This document shows positions 43,335-58,018 of a stretch of DNA of 64,000 bases, in pieces. The stretch's first letter is position 1. Each line of letters opens with the position of its first letter. Both the position numbers and the translations under genes were made by a program. The DNA lies in assembly GCF_000017505.1 (NCBI RefSeq), contig NC_009675.1, positions 4,902,501 through 4,966,500 on the forward strand, written 5' to 3'. A model generated the notes under the pieces. It had not been told where the DNA came from. It did no database searches and saw nothing but the letters and a program-made list of their open reading frames with translations. Source of the DNA: Anaeromyxobacter sp. Fw109-5. GTDB lineage: Bacteria; Myxococcota; Myxococcia; Myxococcales; Anaeromyxobacteraceae.

Positions 43335-43410
43335 GCGGGAATAGCTCAGTTGGTAGAGCATCAGCTTCCCAAGCTGAGGGTCGCCGGTTCGAACCCGGTT
43401 TCCCGCTCCA
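43335..43410 (+). tRNA. tRNA-Gly (anticodon CCC)
   Basis: A 76-nt cloverleaf with encoded CCA. The acceptor arms GCGGGAA (43335-43341) and TTCCCGC (43400-43406) pair. The anticodon stem TCAGC/GCTGA flanks the loop TTCCCAA, with anticodon CCC at 43368-43370. The T-arm has GGTTCGAACCC. Its 3' 45 bp is the attachment core of the integrative element and is duplicated at 52400-52444. Confidence 0.97.
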
Positions 43411-44752
43411 GTCTCCAGGCCGGAACTTCCTGAGCTTTCGCTCGCGGGGTTCCGGCCTTTCTCTTTCCGGCGGTGGGGTCGGGTAGCAACCGGGTAGCAA
43501 ACCCGCGGGCCTCGGAGTCCGTTCGCCCTGAGCGTAGCGCCCGCGCAGCGGGCGCGGAGTCGAAGGGCGGCACCGTCTCCAGCACAGCCGCCCCGAACGA
43601 GAGCCGGTCGACCTCCGCCCGCAGGTACTCTGGTGCCAGGTGCGCGTAGACCTCGGTCGTGAGCTTCGGGTCGCTGTGGCGGAGGATCCGCTGCACCGCC
43701 GCGAGGTCCGCGCCCGACATGATGAGCAGGCTTCCGGTCGTGTGGCGCAGGTCGTGGAACCGGATCGGCCGGACCACCGGCTTCACCCAGAGCTTCCGGC
43801 CATCGGCCGGGCACCGGCGCAGGTCCTGGTCCGCCGTGGCCTCGACATGACCGCAGCCCTTTCGCCGGCAGACGTGCCGGTAGCCTTCGACGACGCCGGC
43901 GCGCCCGAGCGCGCGCCGGAGCGTGTGCTCCAGGTTCACGTCCCGCCGCATCATCGAGCCGTCCAGCTTCGGGAACACGAGCTCGGACGGCGACGCCGTG
44001 AGGGCGACCTCCAGGAACGGCACGAGCTCGGTCGCGATCGGGATGCCATCCTGGTGACCGCCCTTCGTCGTCGCCCGATCGTGCGAGCGCGCGACCGTCA
44101 AGACCTGGCGCCCGAGGTCCACGTCAGACTTGCGGAGCGCGAGCAGCTCGCCCTTCCGCAGACCCGTGTAGATCGCCGCCGCGAACAACGGACGCCAGCA
44201 CGGGTCGAGCGCCCGCAGCAGCAGCGGGACCTCGTGGACGCGCAGGAAGTCCGGCTTCCGCCTCGGCACCTTCCGCTTGCGCACGTCGAGGACGGGGTTC
44301 GGCCCCGGGTACCGCCCCGCGCGCCGAGCCGCGTTGAACGCGCGGCTCAGGTACCCGCGGAGATGGTTCACCATCTGCGGCGACACCTCGCCCGTCTTCG
44401 CCTGCAGGAACGCCTCGACGCGCCCCGCGGTCACCGCGGTGAGCGGCAGCGATGCGAGCTCCGACGCGAGGAAGTGGACGCGGATCGCGCTCTCGTTCGT
44501 CGCGTGAGAGGCGAGCGGCTTCGAGTACGTGTCGAGCCACCACTGGAGCAGCTCGGCGAGGGGCCCGCCGCCGTCCTCGGGGAGCCCGACCTCGACGCCG
44601 AGCCGGACCCGCTCGGCGCGCCGCTCGAGTTGCCCCTGGAGCTGCCGCGCCTCGGTCTTGGTGCGCGCGGCGCAGGCCTTCGCGCGCCAGCGCCCCGCCT
44701 CGTCCTTCCACCGCAGGTACCACGTGCCGCGCTTCAGGTACGGAGCCGCCAT
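43361..44752 (-). CDS. int: Tyrosine site-specific integrase
   Basis: A 463-residue recombinase with an N-terminal AP2-like arm-binding part, a SAM-like core-binding domain (about 62-150) and a catalytic domain. Catalytic residues visible: R199 (TGLRKGE), K230, H333 and R336 (RFHDLRHT), H359 (ILRHSD) and Y369 (TEVYAHL). A zinc-ribbon-like insertion (C295, C300, C314, with the fourth Cys replaced in CPADG) sits inside the catalytic domain. The tail after residue 385 is non-conserved. It runs through a REP-like palindrome, the arm sites and the att core, and stops inside the tRNA at 43361. In the excised circle this frame would continue into the HTH at 52074-52399. Confidence 0.95.
   Translation of the reverse strand: MAAPYLKRGTWYLRWKDEAGRWRAKACAARTKTEARQLQGQLERRAERVRLGVEVGLPEDGGGPLAELLQWWLDTYSKPLASHATNESAIRVHFLASELASLPLTAVTAGRVEAFLQAKTGEVSPQMVNHLRGYLSRAFNAARRAGRYPGPNPVLDVRKRKVPRRKPDFLRVHEVPLLLRALDPCWRPLFAAAIYTGLRKGELLALRKSDVDLGRQVLTVARSHDRATTKGGHQDGIPIATELVPFLEVALTASPSELVFPKLDGSMMRRDVNLEHTLRRALGRAGVVEGYRHVCRRKGCGHVEATADQDLRRCPADGRKLWVKPVVRPIRFHDLRHTTGSLLIMSGADLAAVQRILRHSDPKLTTEVYAHLAPEYLRAEVDRLSFGAAVLETVPPFDSAPAARALRSGRTDSEARGFATRLLPDPTAGKRKAGTPRAKAQEVPAWRLERETGFEPATLSLGS
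43366..43410 (+). repeat. attL core (45-bp direct repeat, copy 1)
   Basis: Identical to 52400-52444. It begins at TTCCCAAGCTGAGGG in the anticodon loop and ends with the encoded CCA, so integration leaves the tRNA intact. Weaker similarity (TCTC, then AGGCCGGAA) continues beyond the core into the terminator on both sides. Confidence 0.92.
43417..43468 (+). terminator. Rho-independent terminator behind tRNA-Gly
   Basis: AGGCCGGAAC (43417-43426) pairs with GTTCCGGCCT (43449-43458) and is followed by the pyrimidine-rich TTCTCTTTCC. It lies on the element side of attL. A related hairpin follows attR, so the element brought its own copy of the tRNA terminator. Confidence 0.75.
43481..43500 (+). 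repeat. Arm-type integrase site pair, left end
   Basis: Two direct copies of GGGTAGCAA (43481-43489 and 43492-43500), 11 bp apart, start 71 bp inside the attL core. The same pair with the same spacing occurs inside attR (52263-52271 and 52274-52282). Paired direct repeats at one helical turn, near both att cores, are typical of the arm sites of tyrosine integrases. Confidence 0.6.
43524..43569. repeat. REP-like palindrome within the integrase C-terminal tail
   Basis: CGCCCT (43524-43529) and AGGGCG (43564-43569) bracket a perfect inner hairpin, GCGCCCGC-GCA-GCGGGCGC (43537-43555). It is the best-formed member of the family also seen at 32198, 58401 and, degenerate, 17331. It lies in frame in the non-conserved tail of the integrase. 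Confidence 0.65.
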
Positions 44753-44779
44753 GCTGCACCCGCCTTGCTGCCCGGCGCG

Positions 44780-45001
44780 TCAGCGCCGGTGATCCACCTT
44801 CGGCCCGCCGCCGGACCCGAGCGCGAACGCCCGTACCCGCTCCGGAACGAACCGCACGAGCCCACCGACCTTGAGATACGGGAGCAGCCCGGCCTCCGCC
44901 TTCTGGTAGACCCACGAGCGGCTGACCTTGAGGTAGCGCGCGACGTCGCGCGCGTCCCAGAGCGTCTCGATCCCATCCGGCCCGTGGTCCATGCCGCTCA
45001 C
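44780..45001 (-). CDS. Small HTH excisionase/AlpA-like DNA-binding protein
   Basis: A 73-residue protein with a MerR-like helix-turn-helix of the excisionase/HTH_17 type: LWDARDVARYLKVSRSWVYQKAEAGLLPYLKVGGLVRFVPERVRAF. Such proteins direct excision or control element genes. The GTG at 45001 overlaps the upstream gene's stop; an in-frame ATG lies at 44992. It is 27 bp upstream of the integrase on the same strand, forming a three-gene operon from the promoter at 45356-45384. Confidence 0.8.
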   Translation of the reverse strand: MSGMDHGPDGIETLWDARDVARYLKVSRSWVYQKAEAGLLPYLKVGGLVRFVPERVRAFALGSGGGPKVDHRR

Positions 45002-45318
45002 CTCTTCGTCTGCTTCGCGTCGAACGCGGGCCCCTTCTCCCGGACGGCGATGCTGCGCTCGTAGAGCAGGTGCAGGAGGTAGTCGGCCGGGTCGAGTCCG
45101 AGCGCCTCGCGGTCCTGGTCGAGCAACCGCGCCGCCGGCGGCGGCAGGCCGAAGTGGTTGCGGAGCCCTTCGAGCACGCGCGTCACGTAGCCCGTGAGGT
45201 CGCTCCCGCGTCTCGTCGCCTCGCCCTTCAAGAACATGACGAGGTCCCGGGACATCCGGAACGTCTGCATCAGCTTCTCGGCGGACGGGAGCGCTGCGTC
45301 GGGCGGCTTCTTCGCCAT
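44998..45318 (-). CDS. Small element protein, possibly DNA-binding, unknown function
   Basis: A 106-residue protein. The segment FRMSRDLVMFLKGEATRRGSDLTGYVTRVLEGLRNHFG looks like a ribbon-helix-helix-type or plasmid-partition-type basic region, followed by an acidic helical tail. The ATG at 45318 is chosen because the promoter at 45356-45384 would start transcription about 30 nt upstream. The longer open frame (to 45651) is antisense to the Nmad3-like gene. It is the first gene of the integrase operon. Confidence 0.7.
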   Translation of the reverse strand: MAKKPPDAALPSAEKLMQTFRMSRDLVMFLKGEATRRGSDLTGYVTRVLEGLRNHFGLPPPAARLLDQDREALGLDPADYLLHLLYERSIAVREKGPAFDAKQTKR

Positions 45319-45355
45319 GCTCGTTGGCCTCTGTACTAGCGTTGTATGTACGTTA

Positions 45356-45384
45356 TCTATACAGCGCGATTCGTCGCGTTTCAA
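45356..45384 (-). promoter_or_regulatory. Probable promoter of the integrase operon
   Basis: On the minus strand TTGAAA (45384-45379) and TATAGA (45361-45356) are separated by exactly 17 bp. Around it is an AT-rich patch (TTGTATGTACGTTATCTATA) in otherwise GC-rich DNA. Transcription would start near 45349. Confidence 0.7.
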
Positions 45385-45458
45385 TGGAGCGCCCCAACGG
45401 TGATCCGTCGCAACGCGCGAGAGGCGCTGCGTCCGCCGGTGAGCGATGATGCTCGTCG

Positions 45459-46193
45459 ATGCGCGCCTACCTCGTCCGCGTCGGCATCGACCAGGCGTTC
45501 GGCGGCTGGAACGCGCCGGTGGACCCGGGCACGAACGAGTTCGTCTACGTGCCCATCCCGGAGGGCTCGCCGCAGCGCCCCCGGCTCGAGACGCCGTACG
45601 AGCTGGTCCGTCCGGCGCTGGCGCGCTTCGCGGACCGTCACCGCGACGCACCGCTCCGAGCCATCCAGCTCCCCGCCGAGCTTGCGCGGGCGGACATGCA
45701 CCTCGACCCCGACTTCGAGGCGCTCACGTACGGCGACACCGAGCGGAGGGGCCGCGGCCTCGCCGACCTCGAAGCCGGCGATCTCCTCGTCTTCTACGCA
45801 GGCCTCCGGCCGGTCAGCCCGTGCGCGCACACGCTCCTCTACGCGCTCATCGGCCTGTACCGCGTCCGCGACGTGGCGCGCCTCGACGCCGTCCCTCAGG
45901 CTCGGTGGCCAGAGAACGCGCACACCCGCCGAGCGGACCCGCGCGCCAGCGACGTCATCGTGCGCGCCGACCGGCGTGCCAGCGGGAGGCTGCGGAGGTG
46001 CCTGCCCGTCGGCGAGTTCCGCGACCGTGCCTACCGCGTCACCCGGGAGCTCCTCGAGGTGTGGGGCGGGCTCTCGTGCCGCGACGGCTACCTCCAGCGC
46101 AGCGCGGTCCCCCCACGGCTTCTCGACCCCGCCCGCTTCCTGGCGTGGTTCGAACGCGCCGCGCCCGAGCTCGTCAGCTCGAACAACCCTTGA
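45459..46193 (+). CDS. Nucleotide-modification-associated domain 3 (Nmad3)-like protein
   Basis: A 244-residue protein. The opening MRAYLVRVGIDQAFGGWNAPV followed by PIPEGSPQ resembles the start of Nmad3-family proteins, which are found beside DNA-modification enzymes and are suspected to act on modified nucleotides. Other stretches (DMHLDPDFEALTYGD, LEAGDLLVFYAGL, RCLPVGEFRDRAYR) also fit that family. No catalytic residues are assigned. The gene overlaps the convergent gene at 46174-46707 by 20 bp. Assignment is from memory of the family pattern and needs a profile search. Confidence 0.6.
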   Translation: MRAYLVRVGIDQAFGGWNAPVDPGTNEFVYVPIPEGSPQRPRLETPYELVRPALARFADRHRDAPLRAIQLPAELARADMHLDPDFEALTYGDTERRGRGLADLEAGDLLVFYAGLRPVSPCAHTLLYALIGLYRVRDVARLDAVPQARWPENAHTRRADPRASDVIVRADRRASGRLRRCLPVGEFRDRAYRVTRELLEVWGGLSCRDGYLQRSAVPPRLLDPARFLAWFERAAPELVSSNNP

Positions 46194-46707
46194 CCGGCTT
46201 CGCCGCCGGCGACGGGCGGCAGCTCCCGCCCTTCCGGATCGCGGGCCCCCGCGTCCCGGCTTGCGGAGCACCCGGCGCGGCGACGCCCTCGCCTTGGTTC
46301 CCGCGTGACGGTGGTGCGTCCTTCGCGAGCGCGAGCATCGCGTCGATCTCCTTCTGCTCCTCCCTGCTGACGTCGTTCATCACGAGCCGGACATTGTTCG
46401 CGTACATCCTGTCGGCCAGCTTGGGCGCGAGGTCGAGGAACCCCGGAGCGTCGACGCCGAACTGGAGGAAGTGATCGAACGTAACGAGCGGCCCGCGCTT
46501 GCCGACCTCCGCCTTGTGCGGCCCGATGCCGATCCAGTTCACCTTCCCGGCGATGCCCCACCCCTCCGGCTCCTCGCCGATCCCGCCCACGCCGATGACC
46601 GCTTCGTACCCGTACCCGCGCACCTGGCCCATGCAGTCATGGATGCCGAAGCGCCCCTCCGCATCCGGATCCCCGTTGTGCGTTCGCTTGTAGACGAGCG
46701 TCCTCAC
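46174..46707 (-). CDS. Unknown protein of the element
   Basis: About 177 residues. The conserved-looking part is RTLVYKRTHNGDPDAEGRFGIHDCMGQVRGYGYEAVIGVGG, then KVNWIGIGPHK and GPLVTFDHFLQFG. It looks like a compact alpha/beta domain with a DCMG motif, and the C-terminal 45 residues are low-complexity. No family is named with confidence. Its partner in a convergent pair is Nmad3-like, so a role in nucleotide modification or defence is possible. The GTG at 46707 is preferred because GAGGGGG lies five bases upstream; a TTG at 46755 is the alternative. Confidence 0.6.
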   Translation of the reverse strand: MRTLVYKRTHNGDPDAEGRFGIHDCMGQVRGYGYEAVIGVGGIGEEPEGWGIAGKVNWIGIGPHKAEVGKRGPLVTFDHFLQFGVDAPGFLDLAPKLADRMYANNVRLVMNDVSREEQKEIDAMLALAKDAPPSRGNQGEGVAAPGAPQAGTRGPAIRKGGSCRPSPAAKPVKGCSS

Positions 46708-46790
46708 GGTGTCCCCCTCGCCGATCTGCCCGACCCCCTCCACCCTCAAACTCAACCCTTCCCCTGATCCCTACACCCATTTGCTCCATT

Positions 46791-46808
46791 TTGAACCACG
46801 TGGTTCAA
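46791..46808. repeat. Palindrome 1
   Basis: TTGAACCACGTGGTTCAA, a perfect 18-bp palindrome. Its flanks (ACCCATTTGCTCCATT before, GAG after) are nearly identical to those of palindrome 3 at 47146. Confidence 0.85.
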
Positions 46809-46859
46809 GAGTTGCCCGGCCCCGCCGCGCTTCATCACTTGAGATCCAAGGACGCCAGC

Positions 46860-46903
46860 AGCCCGACCCCCCGATCCTGTGGTTGGGAGCGGGGGGTCGG
46901 GCT
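46860..46903. repeat. Long hairpin, 14-bp perfect stem
   Basis: AGCCCGACCCCCCG (46860-46873) pairs perfectly with CGGGGGGTCGGGCT (46890-46903) around a 16-nt loop. There is no T-run, so it is not a standard terminator. It may be a structured RNA or a protein-recognised DNA hairpin. Confidence 0.75.
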
Positions 46904-46981
46904 GATGGCGCGCCTCACGCCGCGGTGAACGCCGCTCCGGGCGGCGGGGCCGGGGCGCCGCGATCTCGCGCAGTTACGACG

Positions 46982-47029
46982 CCAATCCTGATCCCAACCC
47001 TGTTACCAATCCCGCTCCCAATCCTGTGG
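46982..47029. repeat. Four 12-bp tandem repeats (iteron-like)
   Basis: CCAATCCTGATC, CCAACCCTGTTA, CCAATCCCGCTC and CCAATCCTGTGG follow each other without gaps. The invariant part is CCAAyCCyG. A small hairpin (CCTGTG/CACAGG, 47023-47044) overlaps the last unit. Confidence 0.7.
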
Positions 47030-47070
47030 GCGCCGGGGCACAGGGGTCAGGAACACCCCTTCCAAGCATT

Positions 47071-47088
47071 TTGGACCACGTGGTCCAA
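47071..47088. repeat. Palindrome 2 (compensated variant)
   Basis: TTGGACCACGTGGTCCAA, a perfect 18-bp palindrome. It differs from palindromes 1 and 3 by one base in each arm, changed symmetrically, so symmetry is conserved over sequence. Confidence 0.85.
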
Positions 47089-47145
47089 CGCGACGACCTT
47101 CGGGCCGCGCTCGGCGACGCCCGCGCTGTACCCGTTTGCTCCATT

Positions 47146-47163
47146 TTGAACCACGTGGTTCAA
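47146..47163. repeat. Palindrome 3
   Basis: TTGAACCACGTGGTTCAA, identical to palindrome 1 and 355 bp from it in direct orientation, with almost identical flanks. Confidence 0.85.
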
Positions 47164-47199
47164 GATAGCGCATCGGGCTATGGGGTGGTCAGCCCGCGA

Positions 47200-50043
47200 T
47201 CACCTCCGCCGGAACAACAGAATGTCGTTCCTTGTGATCGCGTGGTGCGCGTTCAACCGTGCCTCCTTCGTCACCGTGATCGGCACGCACGCATCGAGAG
47301 TCCACCCGAGCCGATCTCCCATCTCTTGAATAGCCTTCGAGCTCTGGATTGTGACTTCACCGGCGCCGGTATGCGTCACGTTGTCACCGATCACAATCGC
47401 TATGGCTCCCCCCGGGCGCACGGCACGGTCCAGGTTCGAAAGAGTCCGCCACATCGACGTGAAGTACCGGATGAGCAAGGACGCCATGTTCTTTCGACGG
47501 AACCCGACATCCGCGCCCGAATTCTGCCGGTGGATCTTCTTTGCGATCGCACATGCCGTCCGGGACCCGATCGTCGCATCGAGGCCGTCGATGGCCGCCT
47601 CGAGTGCCGCTCGGTCTCGCTGCCGAATCTCGCGTGATCCCGTTAGCTGCATCTCTAGCGAGCTGCGCAGGTTGCTGGGAATATCGAGCAGTGACAGCAA
47701 GCTCAGCCGATCTGTGTCGATATACGGAAGGGCCGTCGCATAGGGGGGACTCGTCACCACGGCGTCATACGCCTCGGCGCCGACCCGCAAGTCCGCGCCC
47801 TCGGTACCTGAGTCCCGCGACACGACGTGTGCGGGCGGGAACAGGTTTGGGGCCGCTGCCGCCTGTTCTCCGAAATGACGACACCGATCGCGAAAGCGGA
47901 CCACCCTGGCGCGCAGGAGCATCTCGACTGGCGCATCGGCGAGCGGCTCCTTCCGGCGCCTCACGCGCAGATCGGCCGGCTCCTGGTGAGACACCTCTCG
48001 AATCAGACTGCTGAGCAACACCTTCAGCAGAAGCTGCGCCGTCTCGTTCGGCACCTCTTCGACCTGCCTCCTAACTTTGCCTAGACGACGCGCGACCGGA
48101 CGCGGGAACCAACTCAGGACCTCCTCGCGCGTCGCGGCGGGAAACACCTCAAGGTCCGTGTCCGTCGCGGGCGCTCCGAGCTGCTCCAAGAACGACCGCA
48201 GTGCGCGGTCGAGCAGCAGTGCGTTCTCCGTCGCGACCGCAGTTTTGGCGCGCGAGATGAGGACTGCGAGTGGATTTAGGTCGAATCCGACTGCGCGGTG
48301 GCCGCTGAGCTGGGCCTCGAGGAGCACCGTCCCACTGCCGCAGAAGGGATCGAGGATTCGGCAACCCGGCTGTGAGACGGAGAGGTTCAGGAGCGTCTTC
48401 GCGAGCTGCGGGTAGAACTTTCCCTTGTAGTCGTGAATCCCATGGGTCACGTACTTCGGGTCTCGCCGCGCCGCTGCCCCGTTCTCGAGGCGAGCCTGCC
48501 ACGTCTGCCAACCGGTGCACGCAGCCCCGACCGTGAGCTCAGAGGTAAGGGCGAGGCGGCGAGCTCGGTCAACGCGGTAGCAGTCCAACGTCGCCGTCAG
48601 TTTGCCCTCGGCCGCCGAAACGGGCGCGACGCCGACCACCCTTTCAACTTCCCGGAGCCTGAGCTCATGCTCGTACGGCCACAACCGGTACTTCGGCAAC
48701 TCGAACGTCACCTTCAAGCTGCGCGGCGGCTTCCTGAAAATGACGATATGCTCGGCGCCCAACCGGCGGGCGGCCGGAACGAAGGAGCGGCGAGTTGCGT
48801 GAATCTTCCGCTCGACTGCTCCAAGCCACTCCAGTCCGACTTGAGTGCCGATCTCACCGAGCCGGGCGGCCGAATCAACTTCCTTGCCATCGAAGACCGC
48901 TCCGCCGATTACCATGGCACAGTACCTGCCAGGCCGGAGACGCCGCGCAATCCCGGCGAGACATCCGAGCATTTCGTCGGCGTACAGATCGAACCCGCGC
49001 TTCTCACGCTGATGGCGAAGATGCGAGCCAATCTCTGCTGATCCCAGTACGCGCGGGTCGAACCCGAGCCAGAAAAGCCTGAACCGATGGTACAGGTGAT
49101 AGTCCGTGGCGTTCGCGTAAGGCGGCGACGTGACGATGAGGTCGACCGACTCCGGCTCAGGAGCGTCCGGCGACGTGTCAAGTTGCCTTAGGTCGAGAGT
49201 CGCGACGCGAGCGCGGCGGTAGCCGAGAAGTCGCTCGAGGGGCTCGTGCTCTACGAGAATCCGCTCAAGGGCGGTCGCGAACAACCGCAGGACGTCTCCG
49301 GGGCGATGCCCTTTGTCACGCCGCGTGTAGCGCGTTTCGGAATCCTGATTCGACACCGCTACAACGATCGAGGACAGAGCGACCTCAGACACCAGCCGAG
49401 CGTCGTCATCCGCGATCGCGCTCGCGAGCTGCCGCACGTACGCGAGTTCGCGTGTAGCCTGCGCGGTGAACCACTGTTCATAGTTCGGGATGTCCGGCAC
49501 AAAGCCCTTCGCTGCCCCCCATGCACGCTCAAGGAAGCCTTCGAGGCCGCGGTCGAGCGCGAGGGCGGCAACGCGCTGCCCGAGCGCCCTCAGCACGTCG
49601 CGCTGCTCAGGTCCAAGCGCGGTACACTTCGCGCGTGCGATGTGGCCGGCCAAGGGGTTTGCGTCGGTAGAGAGTGCCTGACGTCCCAGCAGAAGCGCCT
49701 CTAGCGCTGTCGTCCCGCTCCCGCCAAACGGGTCCCACACGAGCTCACCGGGAAGCGATAGCGCAGCAATGAGGTTGGCCGGGATCTGTGGAATGAACTT
49801 CGCGGGATACGGATGCAGATCGTGGCCGAGGTAGCCGGTCTCGTCGTGCGTGAACGCCCAATCGATCGCGCCGAGCGCCTGCATCACGTCCGCGGGATTC
49901 GACAGGTCCTCGAGGCGCGAGAGCTGTGGCAGCCGCGGCTGCGAGTACACCGGTTCGGCGACGAACAGGTTGAAATCCGCGTTCCTGGCTGGGCGTGAGC
50001 GAGCGGGCATTCTGGGAAGGTGCATACCAGCCCAGACTGACAT
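47200..50043 (-). CDS. Two-domain DNA methyltransferase (fused N4/N6 amino-MTases)
   Basis: A 947-residue protein with two complete amino-methyltransferase domains. Domain 1 has HDLHPYPAKFIPQIP, the SAM motif DPFGGSG (104-110) and catalytic TSPPY (305-309). Domain 2 has HDYKGKFYPQLAK, DPFCGSG (565-571) and TSPPY (764-768). The nuclease partner is divergent, 60 bp away. Two methyltransferases are what an asymmetric (type IIS-like) recognition site needs, one per strand, as for the PLD-type enzyme BfiI. The ATG at 50043 is used; in-frame ATGs at 50025 and 50013 are possible. Base composition is less GC-rich than the chromosome, suggesting transfer. Confidence 0.92.
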   Translation of the reverse strand: MSVWAGMHLPRMPARSRPARNADFNLFVAEPVYSQPRLPQLSRLEDLSNPADVMQALGAIDWAFTHDETGYLGHDLHPYPAKFIPQIPANLIAALSLPGELVWDPFGGSGTTALEALLLGRQALSTDANPLAGHIARAKCTALGPEQRDVLRALGQRVAALALDRGLEGFLERAWGAAKGFVPDIPNYEQWFTAQATRELAYVRQLASAIADDDARLVSEVALSSIVVAVSNQDSETRYTRRDKGHRPGDVLRLFATALERILVEHEPLERLLGYRRARVATLDLRQLDTSPDAPEPESVDLIVTSPPYANATDYHLYHRFRLFWLGFDPRVLGSAEIGSHLRHQREKRGFDLYADEMLGCLAGIARRLRPGRYCAMVIGGAVFDGKEVDSAARLGEIGTQVGLEWLGAVERKIHATRRSFVPAARRLGAEHIVIFRKPPRSLKVTFELPKYRLWPYEHELRLREVERVVGVAPVSAAEGKLTATLDCYRVDRARRLALTSELTVGAACTGWQTWQARLENGAAARRDPKYVTHGIHDYKGKFYPQLAKTLLNLSVSQPGCRILDPFCGSGTVLLEAQLSGHRAVGFDLNPLAVLISRAKTAVATENALLLDRALRSFLEQLGAPATDTDLEVFPAATREEVLSWFPRPVARRLGKVRRQVEEVPNETAQLLLKVLLSSLIREVSHQEPADLRVRRRKEPLADAPVEMLLRARVVRFRDRCRHFGEQAAAAPNLFPPAHVVSRDSGTEGADLRVGAEAYDAVVTSPPYATALPYIDTDRLSLLSLLDIPSNLRSSLEMQLTGSREIRQRDRAALEAAIDGLDATIGSRTACAIAKKIHRQNSGADVGFRRKNMASLLIRYFTSMWRTLSNLDRAVRPGGAIAIVIGDNVTHTGAGEVTIQSSKAIQEMGDRLGWTLDACVPITVTKEARLNAHHAITRNDILLFRRR

Positions 50044-50103
50044 TCGGCCGGTGGCCGCGACCGGCAGGTCGTCGTACGCTCCCCCCTTCGGAGGGAGCCG
50101 ATC

Positions 50104-51315
50104 ATGCCCGCATTTGAGTTCCTGAGCCCGCTCGATCAGCCGTTCGCGACAGCACGCGCTGCAGAATGGCTGAAGAATGCGCTCACATCGAAGAAGTACA
50201 ACGAGTTCCTAGCCGCTGTCGCGTTCGCGAAAGAGGGCGCGCTGAAGCGGCTGCTTCCAGCACTCGATGCGTTCAGGAAGGGGGGAGGGAACGCCGAGAT
50301 CGTCTTCGGTATCGATCAACAGGGCACGTCCCGGCAGGCGCTCGAGCTGGCCTTGACCTCGCTCGACGCATCGTACGTGTGGAATCACCCTAGCCCGTAC
50401 ATCACATTTCACCCCAAGGCATACCTGTTCAGCGGCCATGATGCGGCTCTGGCTATCATCGGGTCCTCTAACCTCACGGTGGGCGGCCTCGAGACGAACA
50501 GCGAGATGGTCGCCTCGATTGCCTTCGACTTGCCTAACGAGAACGCCGCGTGGACGAAGGCTCAGTCGTGGTGGAAGCCGCTCATCGGGCACGCAAATTG
50601 CGCAAAGCTCACCGCAGACTTGATAAAGGAACTTGATGCGCGAGGTTTGCTACTGGACGAGACTGCTCCTGGCTCGCATGGCTGCCCCCCTCCCAAGGGC
50701 GAAAAAGGCACAGCGACAGGCGCCCCCTACCCGTTCCCATTTACGAAGGTAGTTCCGCCCTCGAGCGCGCCGACGGCAGGCAAGGGGAAGTCTGCCGCGG
50801 CCGGCAGTGCCAAGCCGATTTCGGCGACCGCCAAGGCGTACCAGCCGTCCGCGCTGCTGATACAGATCATTCCGCACGAAAATGGCGAGATCTTTCTGAG
50901 CGTGACCGCCGTTAACCAGTATCCGGCATTCCTCGGGTGGCCATTCAAGGGGAAGACTACACCGAAGAAGAAGGGCAACAAGCCGTACCCGATGCTGCAG
51001 CCGGATCCAATCACAAATTGGCGCCTGTTCGATAAGTCAGGATCCGTGGCTCAGGCGCTCACCGGCTGGAATCTGAACACGATTTACTACGACAAGAAAT
51101 CGGAGATCCGGATAACGGTTCCGCCCTCGCTCGCGGCAGCCATCCCCGAGTACTCGCTGCTTGAGATGCGGCGCGCCTCGCAGGGCTCCGGTGTCGACTT
51201 TTACTGTGACGTGTACCCCAATGGATCTCCTCAGTACGCGTCGATGATCGGCGCGTGTACGCAGACGCTGCCAAGTGGAGGCAAGCCGGTCGCTCGGAAG
51301 TACGGATGGATTTGA
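50104..51315 (+). CDS. PLD-superfamily restriction endonuclease (NgoFVII/BfiI type)
   Basis: A 403-residue nuclease. One phospholipase-D catalytic motif is visible: H103 and K105 in TFHPKAYLF, with N123 in GSSNLTVGGLETNSE. A single motif implies a dimeric active site. After a low-complexity linker (about 195-240) comes a C-terminal domain (QIIPHENGEIFLSVTAVNQ, WRLFDKSGSVAQALTGWNLNT) resembling the B3-like DNA-recognition domain of such enzymes. GGAGG precedes the ATG. It is divergent from the two-domain methyltransferase, together forming a type II restriction-modification system. Confidence 0.85.
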   Translation: MPAFEFLSPLDQPFATARAAEWLKNALTSKKYNEFLAAVAFAKEGALKRLLPALDAFRKGGGNAEIVFGIDQQGTSRQALELALTSLDASYVWNHPSPYITFHPKAYLFSGHDAALAIIGSSNLTVGGLETNSEMVASIAFDLPNENAAWTKAQSWWKPLIGHANCAKLTADLIKELDARGLLLDETAPGSHGCPPPKGEKGTATGAPYPFPFTKVVPPSSAPTAGKGKSAAAGSAKPISATAKAYQPSALLIQIIPHENGEIFLSVTAVNQYPAFLGWPFKGKTTPKKKGNKPYPMLQPDPITNWRLFDKSGSVAQALTGWNLNTIYYDKKSEIRITVPPSLAAAIPEYSLLEMRRASQGSGVDFYCDVYPNGSPQYASMIGACTQTLPSGGKPVARKYGWI

Positions 51316-51395
51316 AAGCGAAGTAGGGCGCCGCCAGCTCACGTCCGCGTAGGCGCGAGGGCGCGCCTCACCGGTGCCGAGCCGCCTCAGGCCGG

Positions 51396-52034
51396 CTACC
51401 CGGCGCGAGAACGGGTCCGCGCCCTCTTCGGCTCGGCCACCGACAGCCAGAGCTCGATGGCGTCCTTCGCCATCCGCTTCGCCTCGGCGAGGTCGTCGCC
51501 TTCGGTGATGCAGCAGGGGAGCTCGGCGACCTCGACCGTGTAGCCGCCGGCCTCGAGGTCCGGCGTCAGGACCGCCTTGTACCCGCGTCCGCGCACTCGG
51601 ATCGTCGCCGCGCGCGGCGCGCTGATCTCGCTCACGCCGCGCTCGAGGTGGCGAGCGACCTTCGCGACGCTGATGGCGAGCACGACCTGCCCCTCGCCGG
51701 TGGCCTCGATGAGCTTGGCCGGATCGTCGGTCAAGGCGAACACCTTCTTGCCCTGAGCCGTCAGCGCGAGCGTCGCGAGGGGCTGGTCCGCGTGGCTGCG
51801 CAGCCACTTCACGGCGCGCCGGATGGTCTGGACGCTCACGCCCGCCTCGCGGAGCTGCCGCACGACCCGGAGCGCCACCAGGTCCGCGAACGAGTAGACG
51901 CGCCGGGATCCGCGCCCGGCCGCCTGCCGCACGGACGATCGGACGAGCCCGGTCCGCGCCCAGTGATCGAGCTGACGGTAGCTGATGCCGGTGAGGGACA
52001 GGACCGCCCTGGCGCCGAAGCCGGTCGCAGACAT
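51396..52034 (-). CDS. MerR-type HTH fused to a HicB-like antitoxin domain
   Basis: A 212-residue protein. Residues about 12-80 are a MerR-like winged helix (LTGISYRQLDHWARTGLVRSSV, SRRVYSFADLVALRVVRQLREAGVSV). Residues about 90-135 are a linker domain. Residues 151-198 have the HicB partial-RNaseH-like pattern YKAVLTPDLEAGGYTVEVAELPCCITEGDDLAEAKRMAKDAIELWL. HicB usually neutralises the HicA mRNA interferase and represses its own operon, but no HicA-like gene is adjacent. It could be a stand-alone regulator of the element. Confidence 0.8.
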   Translation of the reverse strand: MSATGFGARAVLSLTGISYRQLDHWARTGLVRSSVRQAAGRGSRRVYSFADLVALRVVRQLREAGVSVQTIRRAVKWLRSHADQPLATLALTAQGKKVFALTDDPAKLIEATGEGQVVLAISVAKVARHLERGVSEISAPRAATIRVRGRGYKAVLTPDLEAGGYTVEVAELPCCITEGDDLAEAKRMAKDAIELWLSVAEPKRARTRSRAG

Positions 52035-52073
52035 AGACGCTGGATAACACGCGTGTAGTTCGGCTCAACGTCG

Positions 52074-52399
52074 TCACGGGTGACCCCGCGTCGCCAACGC
52101 CTGGAGGGCCGTGGCGGGGATGCGGACGACGTTCAGCACGCGCACGTGGACGAGCTCCCCGCGCGCGCAGAGCTTGTAGACGGTCGCCGTCGAGACCCGC
52201 AGGCGCCGGGCCACCTCCCGGACGGTCAGGAACTTCTCGGACCCGGCGTCGCGTCCGGCTTCGGGTAGCAAGGGGGTAGCAAAATCTCCGCGAACGGCCC
52301 CGACCGGCTGGGACCGCTGGACTCCGGCGTCCGTCTCAACTCCAGTAGTTGCAAGAGGTTGCGAACCTCCGTGAACGCCTGGACTGCGCGTGAACCCGT
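52074..52399 (-). pseudogene. Excisionase-like HTH segment, detached integrase C-terminus in the integrated state
   Basis: The open frame encodes a helix-turn-helix EKFLTVREVARRLRVSTATVYKLCARGELVHVRVLNVVRIPATALQALA and ends at 52074. Inside the element it has no ATG; only a TTG at 52271 or an internal GTG could start it. The frame runs backwards through the attR core in the same phase as the integrase uses in attL. In the circular form the integrase would therefore end with this domain (570 residues). It may be a genuine switchable C-terminus, an independent xis using TTG, or a coincidence of GC-rich frames. Confidence 0.55.
52263..52282 (+). repeat. Arm-type integrase site pair, right end
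   Basis: GGGTAGCAA at 52263-52271 and 52274-52282, the same sequence, orientation and 11-bp spacing as at 43481-43500. It ends 117 bp inside the attR core. Confidence 0.6.
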
Positions 52400-52444
52400 T
52401 TCCCAAGCTGAGGGTCGCCGGTTCGAACCCGGTTTCCCGCTCCA
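52400..52444 (+). repeat. attR core (45-bp direct repeat, copy 2)
   Basis: Exact copy of the tRNA-Gly 3' part at 43366-43410. The sequence 5' of it does not continue the tRNA, so this is a fragment and not a second tRNA gene. Confidence 0.92.
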
Positions 52445-54571: not shown

Positions 54572-55558
54572 GTGGCGACAGCTGAACAGCTTAAGGCGCT
54601 CGTGCGGAGCTTTGGCGAAGGCGATCAGGCGACCTTCCTTGCGGTCGCCATGCAGGTCGCTGCCTACGCCGCGCGCCAGGGCCACGGCAAGCTTGCCGAG
54701 GAACTCCGCGCCGCGATCGACGAGGTCAAGGCTCGAGGCGCCGTCGTTCCCCGCAGGCACGAGCCCCCCACCCCCCTCGTCCAGCCACGCGGCGAACTCG
54801 CCGGCATTCTCTCCGTCGCGTATCCGAAGACGCGGCTGAGCGAGATGGTCCTCGACACGTCCGTTCGCCGGAAGCTCGACCGCGTCCTGAAGGAGCATCG
54901 GCAGTCGTCGAAGCTCCAGGCGCATGGCCTCGCACCGCGGCACCGCCTCCTCCTCGTCGGTCCGCCGGGAAGCGGGAAGACGATGACGGCCGCGGCGCTC
55001 GCCGGCGAGATGAGCCTCCCGCTGTTCACTATCCAGCTGGACGGCGTGATCACGAAGTTCATGGGCGAGACGGCCGCCAAGCTCCGGCTCGTGTTCGACG
55101 CGATTCGCACCACGCGCGGCGTGTACCTGTTCGACGAATTCGACGCGATCGGCGGTCGCCGGACGGCATCGAACGACGTTGGCGAGATCCGGCGCGTGCT
55201 CAACTCGTTCCTGCTGTTCCTCGAGCAGGAGCGGTCCGACAGCCTCGTCGTAGCGGCGACGAACCACCCCGACCTCTTGGACCGAGCGCTATTCAGACGG
55301 TTCGACGACGTCGTCGAGTACGGAGCGCCCGAGGGCGCTGCGATCGACCGCGCCATTCGCGCGAAGCTCGGCGCATTCAACATCTCCGGCCTGAGCTGGC
55401 CTCGCGTTCGCACCGCAGCACGAGGGCTCAGCTATGCCGAGATCGCGAAGGCGTGCGAGGACGCGTTGAAGGAAACGGTCCTGGCCGACGGCCGAAACGT
55501 CTCCACGCAGTCGCTCGTTGAAGCGTTTCGCGAACGACGCAGAACCCGACGAAAGTAG
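54572..55558 (+). CDS. ietA: AAA ATPase of an IetAS-type defence pair
   Basis: A 328-residue AAA ATPase. Residues 1-85 are a helical N-terminal domain (YAARQGHGKLAEELRAAIDE). Walker A is GPPGSGKT at 130-137, Walker B LFDEFD at 187-192, sensor 1 is in VVAATNHPDLLD, and the Arg finger region is ALFRRFDD. The neighbour, 21 bp downstream, is a subtilisin-like protease. AAA ATPase plus S8 peptidase is the two-gene composition of the IetAS anti-phage system, first known from plasmid exclusion. Start: GTG at 54572. Confidence 0.85.
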   Translation: MATAEQLKALVRSFGEGDQATFLAVAMQVAAYAARQGHGKLAEELRAAIDEVKARGAVVPRRHEPPTPLVQPRGELAGILSVAYPKTRLSEMVLDTSVRRKLDRVLKEHRQSSKLQAHGLAPRHRLLLVGPPGSGKTMTAAALAGEMSLPLFTIQLDGVITKFMGETAAKLRLVFDAIRTTRGVYLFDEFDAIGGRRTASNDVGEIRRVLNSFLLFLEQERSDSLVVAATNHPDLLDRALFRRFDDVVEYGAPEGAAIDRAIRAKLGAFNISGLSWPRVRTAARGLSYAEIAKACEDALKETVLADGRNVSTQSLVEAFRERRRTRRK

Positions 55559-55579
55559 GTCCGTCGGCCGAGAAGGGCC

Positions 55580-58018
55580 GTGGCCAAACCGAGAATTCGC
55601 CGACATCTCTTCGTCCGAGACGCTCCGAACACGGAGCGTTTCACGTCTGTGCACGCAGGTGGCGGGAAGCCGCGGGTCAAGGCACAGGATCGCGGCGCTC
55701 ACGCGCGCGATCTGGAGGCGGAGCTCGATACCGCCGCTGCTGCGGCGGAAGACGCCGACCGACCGGTCAGGATCGACTTTCATAGCGAACCCGGCTTCGA
55801 GCTTGCCCTCGCGAGCCTCGACTCGACGCGGCCTGGCGCGTACGAGCTGCTGGCCGTTCGGCACGATGGTGACGTGACAATCGCGACGGTCCTGGTCGAA
55901 CGAAAGAGCATCAAGCACTTCCGAAAGGCGATTGAGGAATACGCGGCGAAGGACACGCGGAAGGGCCTACCGGCGCACGAGCGGCTGATCGCGAACATCT
56001 CGGCGATTCACCGCGCATCCGTGCGGTCCATCTGGACGGATGAAGGCGCGCCGTTCCCAGCTAACGGGGAGGCGATGTGGTGGGAAGCGTGGCTCCGCCG
56101 ACGTGAGGGAGCGATCGCCGGTTTCAGGGCTCGCGCCGTCGAGCAGGGACTGCGGCCCGGTCCTCGAACGCTGGCCTTCATCGACCGGCTCGTCACCACC
56201 GTGTACGGCACGGTCGAGCAGATGGGAGCTCTGTTCGAGGAGGACGACGCCCTCGCGGAGCTCAGACGCGCGAAGGAACTCTCAACGGAGTTCTTAAGCC
56301 TCACGCCCCGGGAACAAGCTGAGTGGGCGCGAGATCTTCGGCGCAGGGTGGTCCCCCCAGGACCCGATGCGCCTTCCGTGTGCCTCCTCGATACGGGCGT
56401 CAATCGGGGGCACATCCTCTTGGAGCCGCTCCTCGATGCGAGGTCCACGCTGTCCTGCGACGAACAATGGGGCGCGAACGACCACAATGGCCACGGGACG
56501 GAGATGGCGGGCCTGGCCGGGTTCGGAGACCTCGCACCGCTTCTGATGTCTGGCAGCCTCGTTCCAATCCGTCACCGGCTCGAGAGCGTGAAGATCCTTC
56601 CTCCCGCCGGGAACAACGAACGCGAAGTCTACGGCGCCCTCACTCAGGAGGCAGTGGCACGCGCAGAGGCTGCGAATCCGGACCGCGCTCGCGCCGTATG
56701 CCTCACGGTGACGACCAGGGACGGCCGCGACCAAGGAAAGCCGTCTTCCTGGTCCGCCGCGATCGATCAGTTCGCCGCGGGGGCGCTCGATGATCAGCGA
56801 CGCCTGTTCTGTGTTTCGGCGGGGAACGCGGACGTCGACGACGCGATGAACTACCCGACGAGCAACGAAACCGACTCGATTCACGACCCTGGGCAGTCGT
56901 GGAACGCCATCACAGTGGGCGCGCTCGCGGACCGCGTCGATATTACAGAGCCCGAATTCCACGGCTGGTCCGCGGTGGCGCCAGCCGGTGATCTCGGACC
57001 CTGCAGCACGACCTCGTCCACGTGGCCCGGGCAGAGGCGGTGGCCGATCAAGCCCGAAATCCTGATGCCGGGCGGCAACATCGCAATCAACCCGGACCGG
57101 ACCGTCGTGGATGCGACGGACAGCCTGTCGCTCCTGACGACGCACTGGATGCCCATCGAGCGGCAGTTCACGACCTCTGGCGACACGAGCGCGGCCGCTG
57201 CCTTGGCGGCGCGCTTGGCTGCGCGTATCCAAGCGGACTACCGTCAGCTCTGGCCCGAGACGGTTCGGGGCCTGATCGTCCACGCCGCCGAGTGGACCGA
57301 GGCGATGCGAAGGCGATTCCCCGCCAAGAACGACGTCGAGAAGCGGCTCAGGTTCTACGGGTTCGGTGTCCCCGACGAAGCTGCCGCGGTTCGAAGCGCG
57401 GACGATGCGCTGACGCTCATCGCCCAGAACACGATTCAGCCATTCATAAAGGAGAAGAAGGGCAAGAGCACACGGTTCGTCACCGCGGATATGCACGTTC
57501 ATCGGCTGCCATGGCCGACGGACGTTCTCACCGAGCTCGGAGAGAGGGACGTGGACCTCCGTGTGACGCTCTCGTATTTCATCGAGCCAAGCCCGGGTGA
57601 GCGGGGATGGAAACAGAGGCACCGGTACGCGTCGCACGGCCTCCGGTTCGAGCTTAAGACCGCCACCGAGACATTCGAGCAGTTCCGAACCCGTATCAAC
57701 CGTGCGGCGCGCGCCGAGGATGAGAAACCTACGAGCAAGGGCGACCAACGGGGGTGGACGCTTGGCCCCGATCTGCGCACCGCCGGATCGATTCACTCCG
57801 ACACATGGACCGGCCCGGCGATCGACCTCGCGCGCCGCAGTGCGATCGCCATCTACCCCGCGATCGGTTGGTGGCGGGAGCGGCACCATCTAGGTCGATG
57901 GAACCAGAAGACGAGGTACTCCCTCGTGGTGTCGATCCGGACACCAGGGATCGAGACCGACATCTACACCCCGGTTGCGATCCAACTCGGCATCCCCGTC
58001 CCGACCGAGATCGCGTGA
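55580..58018 (+). CDS. ietS: Subtilisin-like serine protease of an IetAS-type defence pair
   Basis: An 812-residue intracellular S8-family peptidase; no signal peptide is present. A 260-residue N-terminal region precedes the protease domain. The catalytic triad is D271 (LLDTGVN), H305 (DHNGHGTEMAG) and S537 (TTSGDTSAAAA), with the oxyanion Asn N416 in CVSAGNAD. The C-terminal region (about 600-812) is beta-rich and may bind the ATPase or a target. All catalytic residues are intact, so the system looks functional. The start codon is GTG at 55580. Confidence 0.88.
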   Translation: MAKPRIRRHLFVRDAPNTERFTSVHAGGGKPRVKAQDRGAHARDLEAELDTAAAAAEDADRPVRIDFHSEPGFELALASLDSTRPGAYELLAVRHDGDVTIATVLVERKSIKHFRKAIEEYAAKDTRKGLPAHERLIANISAIHRASVRSIWTDEGAPFPANGEAMWWEAWLRRREGAIAGFRARAVEQGLRPGPRTLAFIDRLVTTVYGTVEQMGALFEEDDALAELRRAKELSTEFLSLTPREQAEWARDLRRRVVPPGPDAPSVCLLDTGVNRGHILLEPLLDARSTLSCDEQWGANDHNGHGTEMAGLAGFGDLAPLLMSGSLVPIRHRLESVKILPPAGNNEREVYGALTQEAVARAEAANPDRARAVCLTVTTRDGRDQGKPSSWSAAIDQFAAGALDDQRRLFCVSAGNADVDDAMNYPTSNETDSIHDPGQSWNAITVGALADRVDITEPEFHGWSAVAPAGDLGPCSTTSSTWPGQRRWPIKPEILMPGGNIAINPDRTVVDATDSLSLLTTHWMPIERQFTTSGDTSAAAALAARLAARIQADYRQLWPETVRGLIVHAAEWTEAMRRRFPAKNDVEKRLRFYGFGVPDEAAAVRSADDALTLIAQNTIQPFIKEKKGKSTRFVTADMHVHRLPWPTDVLTELGERDVDLRVTLSYFIEPSPGERGWKQRHRYASHGLRFELKTATETFEQFRTRINRAARAEDEKPTSKGDQRGWTLGPDLRTAGSIHSDTWTGPAIDLARRSAIAIYPAIGWWRERHHLGRWNQKTRYSLVVSIRTPGIETDIYTPVAIQLGIPVPTEIA

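Follow-up and report, generated by a model that had tools for sequence, protein, structure and literature searches.

A block of palindromes, repeats and stems at 46708-47199 of the stretch of DNA analysed here (the window, 64,000 nucleotides of the Anaeromyxobacter sp. Fw109-5 genome) is probably a composite cis-acting site, through which an integrative mobilizable element (IME) without a relaxase would mimic the combined oriT-parS site of an ICE. Within this block, a conserved fold is best read as a putative origin of transfer (oriT), and the palindromes on both sides of it are best read as putative, parS-like ParB sites. The part between the palindromes is more widespread than the palindromes and accompanies a relaxase gene and a ribbon-helix-helix (RHH) gene; it looks like an oriT, and had been missed when the block was first described from its letters alone (the sequence-only reading). 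We computed the conservation and covariation of the fold, its gene associations, the pairing of palindromes with ParB types, the att repeats and the gene absences in the host genome; nicking, ParB binding, mobilisation and partition are what we infer from them.

An integrative island at a tRNA-Gly gene

The block lies on an island that is bounded by direct repeats and carries an integrase at one end. Its features are as follows:

43411-52444, no strand: genomic island (integrative element) of 9,034 bp, recognised by direct repeats and an integrase at one end
43366-43410, plus strand: att repeat copy 1, the 3' part of tRNA-Gly (CCC), 43335-43410
52400-52444, plus strand: att repeat copy 2, 45 bp, identical to the last 45 bp of tRNA-Gly
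43361-44752, minus strand: tyrosine integrase (PF00589, 1e-21)
44780-44992, minus strand: small HTH protein, AlpA/excisionase-like (HTH_17, 5e-8), candidate directionality factor
44998-45318, minus strand: 106-aa RHH protein, candidate relaxosome accessory factor
45459-46193, plus strand: cargo, Nmad3-domain protein (PF18754, 1.2e-23)
47200-50043, minus strand: cargo, double DNA methyltransferase of restriction-modification type (PF01555; PADLOC MTase_II over both halves)
50104-51315, plus strand: cargo, PLD-family nuclease with a weak NgoFVII match, candidate restriction enzyme

A longer repeat around the att sites displays 79% identity. The cluster to which the small HTH protein belongs also adjoins the integrase in other elements, and a MerR/HicB-like protein is a further product of the island. 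Integrase, att repeats and a candidate excision factor are thus all present, as for an integrative mobilizable element. Relaxase, T4SS and ParAB genes are absent from the island. At the search thresholds, the genome as a whole yielded no PF13814 match, no TraG/VirB4 match and no element ParB; its single strong ParB_N match lies near the contig end, a position which suggests that it is the chromosomal ParB.

The tRNA-Gly gene is an integration hotspot, and the neighbouring content varies among relatives. A clean empty site was sought at this locus in the relatives and none was found, the content being different and the right flank unconserved. Between the Nmad3 gene and the block, a 189-aa protein (46174-46743, minus strand) had no match in Pfam, NCBIfam or PADLOC. 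Just beyond the island, two adjacent genes for an AAA ATPase and an S8 peptidase (54572-58018) matched the IetAS anti-phage system.

Palindromes, repeats and a covarying fold

The three 18-bp palindromes, four 12-bp repeats and 14-bp stem described in the sequence-only reading are all present in the block. To these we add that the outer and inner stems are nested parts of one 138-bp fold:

46696-46790, plus strand: pyrimidine-rich tract upstream of the fold, C+T about 70%
46791-46808, no strand: palindrome 1, TTGAACCACGTGGTTCAA, putative ParB site (parS-like)
46816-46953, plus strand: conserved fold, putative oriT core (outer stem 46815-46828/46941-46954, inner hairpin 46853-46910)
46815-46828/46941-46954: outer stem, 14 bp, perfect
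46853-46877/46886-46910: inner stem, 25 bp, 92%, inside the outer stem
46964-46979, no strand: conserved short motif CGCG..GTTAC, adjoining the outer stem on its 3' side, candidate nic region
46982-47029, plus strand: four 12-bp repeats, units CCAATCCTGATC, CCAACCCTGTTA, CCAATCCCGCTC and CCAATCCTGTGG (CCAATCCTGATC-like), candidate accessory-protein sites
47071-47088, no strand: palindrome 2, TTGGACCACGTGGTCCAA, symmetric TTGGACC variant (A/G-T/C), putative ParB site
47146-47163, no strand: palindrome 3, TTGAACCACGTGGTTCAA, putative ParB site; lies in a second, 36-bp copy of the region around palindrome 1

The perfect 18-bp palindromes occur in three exact copies, against 0.05 from dinucleotide shuffles of the 64-kb window with up to three mismatches allowed. 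The symmetric variant reported earlier is indeed TTGGACCACGTGGTCCAA, and the near-identity claimed for the outer copies over about 35 bp amounts to 35 of 36 bp (46775-46810 vs 47130-47165). A genome-wide count in the hundreds had been named as the outcome that would make the palindrome an ordinary REP. The 18-mer is found three times in the 5.28-Mb genome, each time inside the block, and a REP/BIME repeat was rejected. The suggestion that the palindrome serves as recognition site for the neighbouring modification genes is not supported either: the genome has no copy of it outside the block, and in relatives it lies beside quite different cargo.

The covariance search that had been proposed over the block proved productive. 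A model (R1) built from seven blocks, with which the window fold scores 120.7 bits, recovered relatives of the fold in 25 of the 147 genomes of the class, most of them drafts, spanning 12 genera. Covariation was evaluated in a MAFFT alignment of 31 copies, made with no structure fitting from copies that had been chosen with the covariance model. In this alignment 96.5% of the cells were paired and 21 of the 35 pairs displayed two-sided changes; the covariation score was 0.337, compared with 0.107±0.008 after shuffling and at most 0.088 with slid partners. The folding z scores of the two strands were -4.9 and -5.3. Mispairs among the copies were 26 G.T and 19 A.C, and because these two kinds are about equally common, we infer that the pairing constraint acts not on a transcript but on DNA, as a cruciform or a single-stranded hairpin.

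The surroundings of the fold also have shared features. The CGCG..GTTAC motif is found at the equivalent position in the flanks of the fold copies, and the region upstream (-120 to -20) has a mean C+T content of 68% in 44 copies vs 54% in nearby controls. Neither similar plasmid DNA nor the RHH protein was found in plasmids. In one 5.1-Mb genome (G027, loci L115-L126), which has a single ParB_N match, we counted about 13 fold copies and 12 RHH genes, many of them situated at contig ends.

Genes that accompany the fold and the palindromes

When the neighbours of the fold were clustered, three recurrent partners emerged: the 106-aa RHH family, integrases, and a family of 250-480 aa that we read as relaxases. 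Within 4.5 kb of 43 mapped folds there was a relaxase-cluster gene in 18 cases, an RHH-type gene in 24 and an integrase in 19, frequently in the order fold-RHH-relaxase-HTH-integrase. In about 10 of the 43, the relaxase-cluster gene starts 130-450 nt from the fold and is directed away from it; gene calls outside the window were made with a codon-usage script, so these starts are approximate. Five of six scanned members of the 250-480-aa family matched PF13814 (Replic_Relax), the divergent L130 member being the one without a match. PF13814 is placed in the MobC relaxase superfamily (PMC5357655) and is treated as a relaxase in two other IME/ICE surveys. Across the 147 genomes, the fold (25) and PF13814 (22) share 16 (Fisher p=1e-10) and the fold and the RHH protein (23) share 17 (p=1e-11), p values that overstate independence because the genomes are related.

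The RHH family has no Pfam match. A profile of 22 homologues matched Mnt, Arc, omega and CdbA in the PDB, with a best E of 0.0024 and Mnt alone below 0.01; a single-sequence AlphaFold model had a low pLDDT (66), and its Foldseek matches were not significant. Among oriT systems there are precedents both for accessory factors of the RHH type and for a conserved core whose adjacent sites diverge (PMC8136818). The fold is read as a putative oriT because its relatives adjoin an RHH gene, a PF13814 relaxase gene and an integrase. It contains conserved inverted repeats, and stands as a cis site beside a relaxase gene in the relatives, not in the window itself. At the position of the window's 12-bp repeats, relatives display lineage-specific repeat arrays: CAATCCTG units are common to elements with type A and with type B palindromes, and the type C elements have GGTGCC units. 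Since the units go by lineage and across palindrome types, these repeats may be sites of the relaxosome side.

The exact 18-mer was detected in four of the 147 genomes. Two copies lie 277-284 bp apart around the homologous block in the window, in G014 and in G034, a Myxococcales MAG in which parB and parA directly follow the block and a search for a PF13814 gene found none. The G014 element is an ICE, encoding a VirB4-like ATPase, RHH, relaxase, parAB and integrase, with further T4SS-like genes judged by eye from order and size. Its block displays 79% identity to that of the window over about 320 bp, with parAB about 5 kb and the relaxase gene about 37 kb away. The ParB of G014 and G034 combines a ParB_N with an HTH_ParB domain, and among solved structures those of ParB/Spo0J/Noc proteins come closest to it. 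In G028 and G029, close relatives of this ParB adjoin a homologous block with a different palindrome, GTTGGTCCGYGCGGACCAAC, in two to three copies.

Other loci carry further variants of this arrangement. ICE-type elements at L023/L024 display a conserved row of VWA, MoxR-like AAA, DUF6744 and second ParB_N proteins beside the block, and at L085 (425-6205) a 1,926-aa protein without Pfam match adjoins T4SS genes. In Anaeromyxobacter sp. PSR-1, a block with the same palindrome (L025, contig C102, 596-3744) lies beside nucleotide-cyclase-like and cyclic-nucleotide-sensor/TIR-like genes, which, read by eye, are other defence-like cargo. The same genome (G018) has a half block on contig C336 (L075, 8032-8195) with repeats and two palindromes, one of them centrally mismatched, and no fold; this looks like decay. 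The 18-mer also turned up in unrelated genomes and in two viral contigs; none of those loci carries the fold, and these matches were treated as chance.

Among the 44 folds with enough flank, 15 had a perfect palindrome of at least 16 bp at +60 to +400, against 0.022 expected per flank from the same loci (p=2e-14). The palindromes at the equivalent place belong to at least six sequence types: TTGRACCACGTGGTYCAA, GGTCCRCGYGGACC-centred, ACGATCCACGTGGATCGT, GACGTCACCGGTGACGTC, CGAGCAGCGCTGCTCG, besides singletons from G010 and from G001. In elements that have a ParB, palindromes pair with it in four types, of one or two genomes each:

ParB type A (G014, G034): TTGRACCACGTGGTYCAA
ParB type B (G028, G029): TTGGTCCGYGCGGACCAA
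ParB type C (G016, G017): GACGTCACCGGTGACGTC
ParB type D (G086): CGAGCAGCGCTGCTCG

The same element contains parAB in G014, G034, G028 and G029 and a ParB in G016, G017 and G086; no such cognate genes were found in the window or its genome. Elements with similar ParB proteins share one palindrome, and the ParB types differ from one another in the recognition-helix region. We also considered the RHH protein as reader of the palindromes, which is not favoured, given that RHH identities do not track palindrome type: the window RHH is equally far (55%) from the RHH proteins of types A and B, and so does not explain the palindromes. The palindromes are read as putative ParB sites because, where parAB is present, their type goes with ParB and not with RHH. 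As in parS, a palindrome of about 14-22 bp is present in several copies. The likeness to ParB-type sites and the replication or partition region named in the sequence-only reading are thus partly supported, by the same palindrome beside parAB in two relatives and by other ParB types with other palindromes; what that reading lacked was the oriT-like fold between them.

The block palindromes also resemble chromosomal parS of the TGTTCCACGTGGAACA type, being 16-18 bp long with a CACGTG centre; TGTTCCACGTGGAACA shares 12 of 16 bases with palindrome types A, B and one more. They differ from it at positions 3-4 of each half, are confined to mobile elements and are paired with element-specific ParB proteins. 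The canonical chromosomal parS TGTTYCACGTGRAACA was not matched (10-12 of 16 bases).

Proposed mechanism, rival explanations and known systems

Based on these findings, we postulate that the fold and adjacent repeats act as an oriT for PF13814 (MobC-type) relaxases aided by an RHH accessory protein, of which the island encodes the accessory only, and that the flanking palindromes serve the ParB of a related ICE as centromere-like sites. Neither the island nor the host genome encodes a ParB for the palindromes, so that a larger conjugative element probably carries the island along. The island would remain in place until a G014-type helper ICE enters the cell. The island integrase and HTH protein would then excise it, as the att repeats suggest; the RHH protein would bind the 12-bp repeats while the helper relaxase nicks the fold, a step modelled on their association in relatives; and the island would exit through the type IV system of the helper. 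While extrachromosomal, it may use, and titrate, the helper ParAB through its palindromes, competing with the helper, as the ParB-palindrome pairing and the precedent of SGI1 would have it.

Several points weigh against this explanation: the distance of the relaxase gene from the block in G014, the lack of a PF13814 match in G034, the one or two genomes behind each ParB type, and the fact that the window has neither relaxase nor ParB, so that its palindromes may be all that is left of a former parAB. In its full form, this last alternative holds that they have no function and descend from an ICE whose parAB, relaxase and T4SS have been lost, and that nothing is mobilised now. We regard it as somewhat unlikely. 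The absence of all three sets of genes from the genome fits it, as does the half-decayed block with one damaged palindrome in PSR-1; yet in the window the fold is undamaged, none of the three palindromes has a mismatch, and palindrome 3 is an added duplicate. Furthermore, palindromes without an element ParB recur in G027, G030, G010 and G001, each with a single ParB_N match, which suggests retention and not one decay event.

Given that PF13814 bears the name 'replication-relaxation', the fold might also serve to initiate replication. The fold and repeats would then be a vegetative or rolling-circle origin (oriV/dso) of the excised element with a PF13814 initiator, and the palindromes its centromere. 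This fits the 12-bp repeats adjoining the hairpin and the parAB genes nearby in G014, G034, G028 and G029, and origin and transfer functions can coincide. We nonetheless consider it improbable: no candidate for the initiator is encoded on the island, the scanned neighbours of the fold included no recognisable Rep-type gene, published IME/ICE surveys handle PF13814 proteins as relaxases, and relaxosomes typically include an RHH partner. Lower still is the probability we give to a structured non-coding RNA, an option named in the sequence-only reading, for mobilisation or copy control, comparable to the SGI1 small RNA in the consulted part of PMC9299015. The strong fold and its covariation speak for such an RNA, and the pairing seen by the sequence-only reading is real; but both strands fold equally well, the mispairs reveal no strand-specific wobble enrichment, and at the Rfam gathering score the tRNA was the sole match in the window, with no family for the fold.

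The composite site that we favour has precedents on each of its two sides. The SGI1 island uses the parABS system of its helper IncC plasmid through copied parS sites (PMC10954446). SGI1 resembles the present island in being an integrative mobilizable island without ParAB that bears copies of the helper's parS and uses its ParAB, which is putative here. SGI1 is tied to IncC plasmids; in our case the palindromes flank a putative oriT, the proposed helper is a Myxococcota ICE whose relaxase belongs to PF13814, and the binding of ParB is a prediction. Islands without a relaxase that carry an ICE-like oriT are a known type (PMC5704250). SXT-type MGIs such as MGIVflInd1 likewise have an integrase, an excision factor and an ICE-resembling oriT, with 63% identity to the ICE over 282 bp, where the window block displays 79% over about 320 bp to G014. 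Those islands depend on a MobH relaxase and MobI, whereas a PF13814/MobC-type relaxase, an RHH protein and parS-like flanks are found here.

The oriT mimics of the staphylococcal pWBG749 family (PMC8136818, PMC4652767) also combine a conserved core with subtype-divergent specificity sites beside it, which are read by a DNA-binding protein of the conjugative element while the mimics sit on non-conjugative DNA. There, the RHH protein SmpO sets specificity, whereas in our elements it is apparently ParB that the variable palindromes go with. Segregation proteins and conjugation are linked at or near oriT by ParB/parS and ParR of NAH7 (PMC12421886) and by stbABC of R388 (PMC3098194); these are plasmids with other protein families, and the consulted parts of both accounts report no covarying fold of such kind.

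We tentatively suggest, as a possibility that goes beyond the present island, that Myxococcota ICEs and their hitchhikers share this composite site, a covarying cruciform oriT between exchangeable ParB centromeres. Competition for a 300-bp region would decide between transfer and partition, and islands without a ParB would exchange one palindrome type for another, thereby choosing or excluding particular helper ICEs. Palindrome types are exchanged while the fold is kept, which makes helper specificity directly testable, and the covariance model would provide a searchable signature for this family of mobile islands. Our literature search found little on such elements in Myxococcota.

If our reading is correct, the island would join in one site the hijacked parS of SGI1 and the mimicked oriT of SXT-type MGIs. 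Parasitism of parS, so far described for SGI1, would then occur in an unrelated lineage and be joined to a transfer origin, and the site would show how islands of defence genes in Anaeromyxobacter and its relatives move without conjugation genes.
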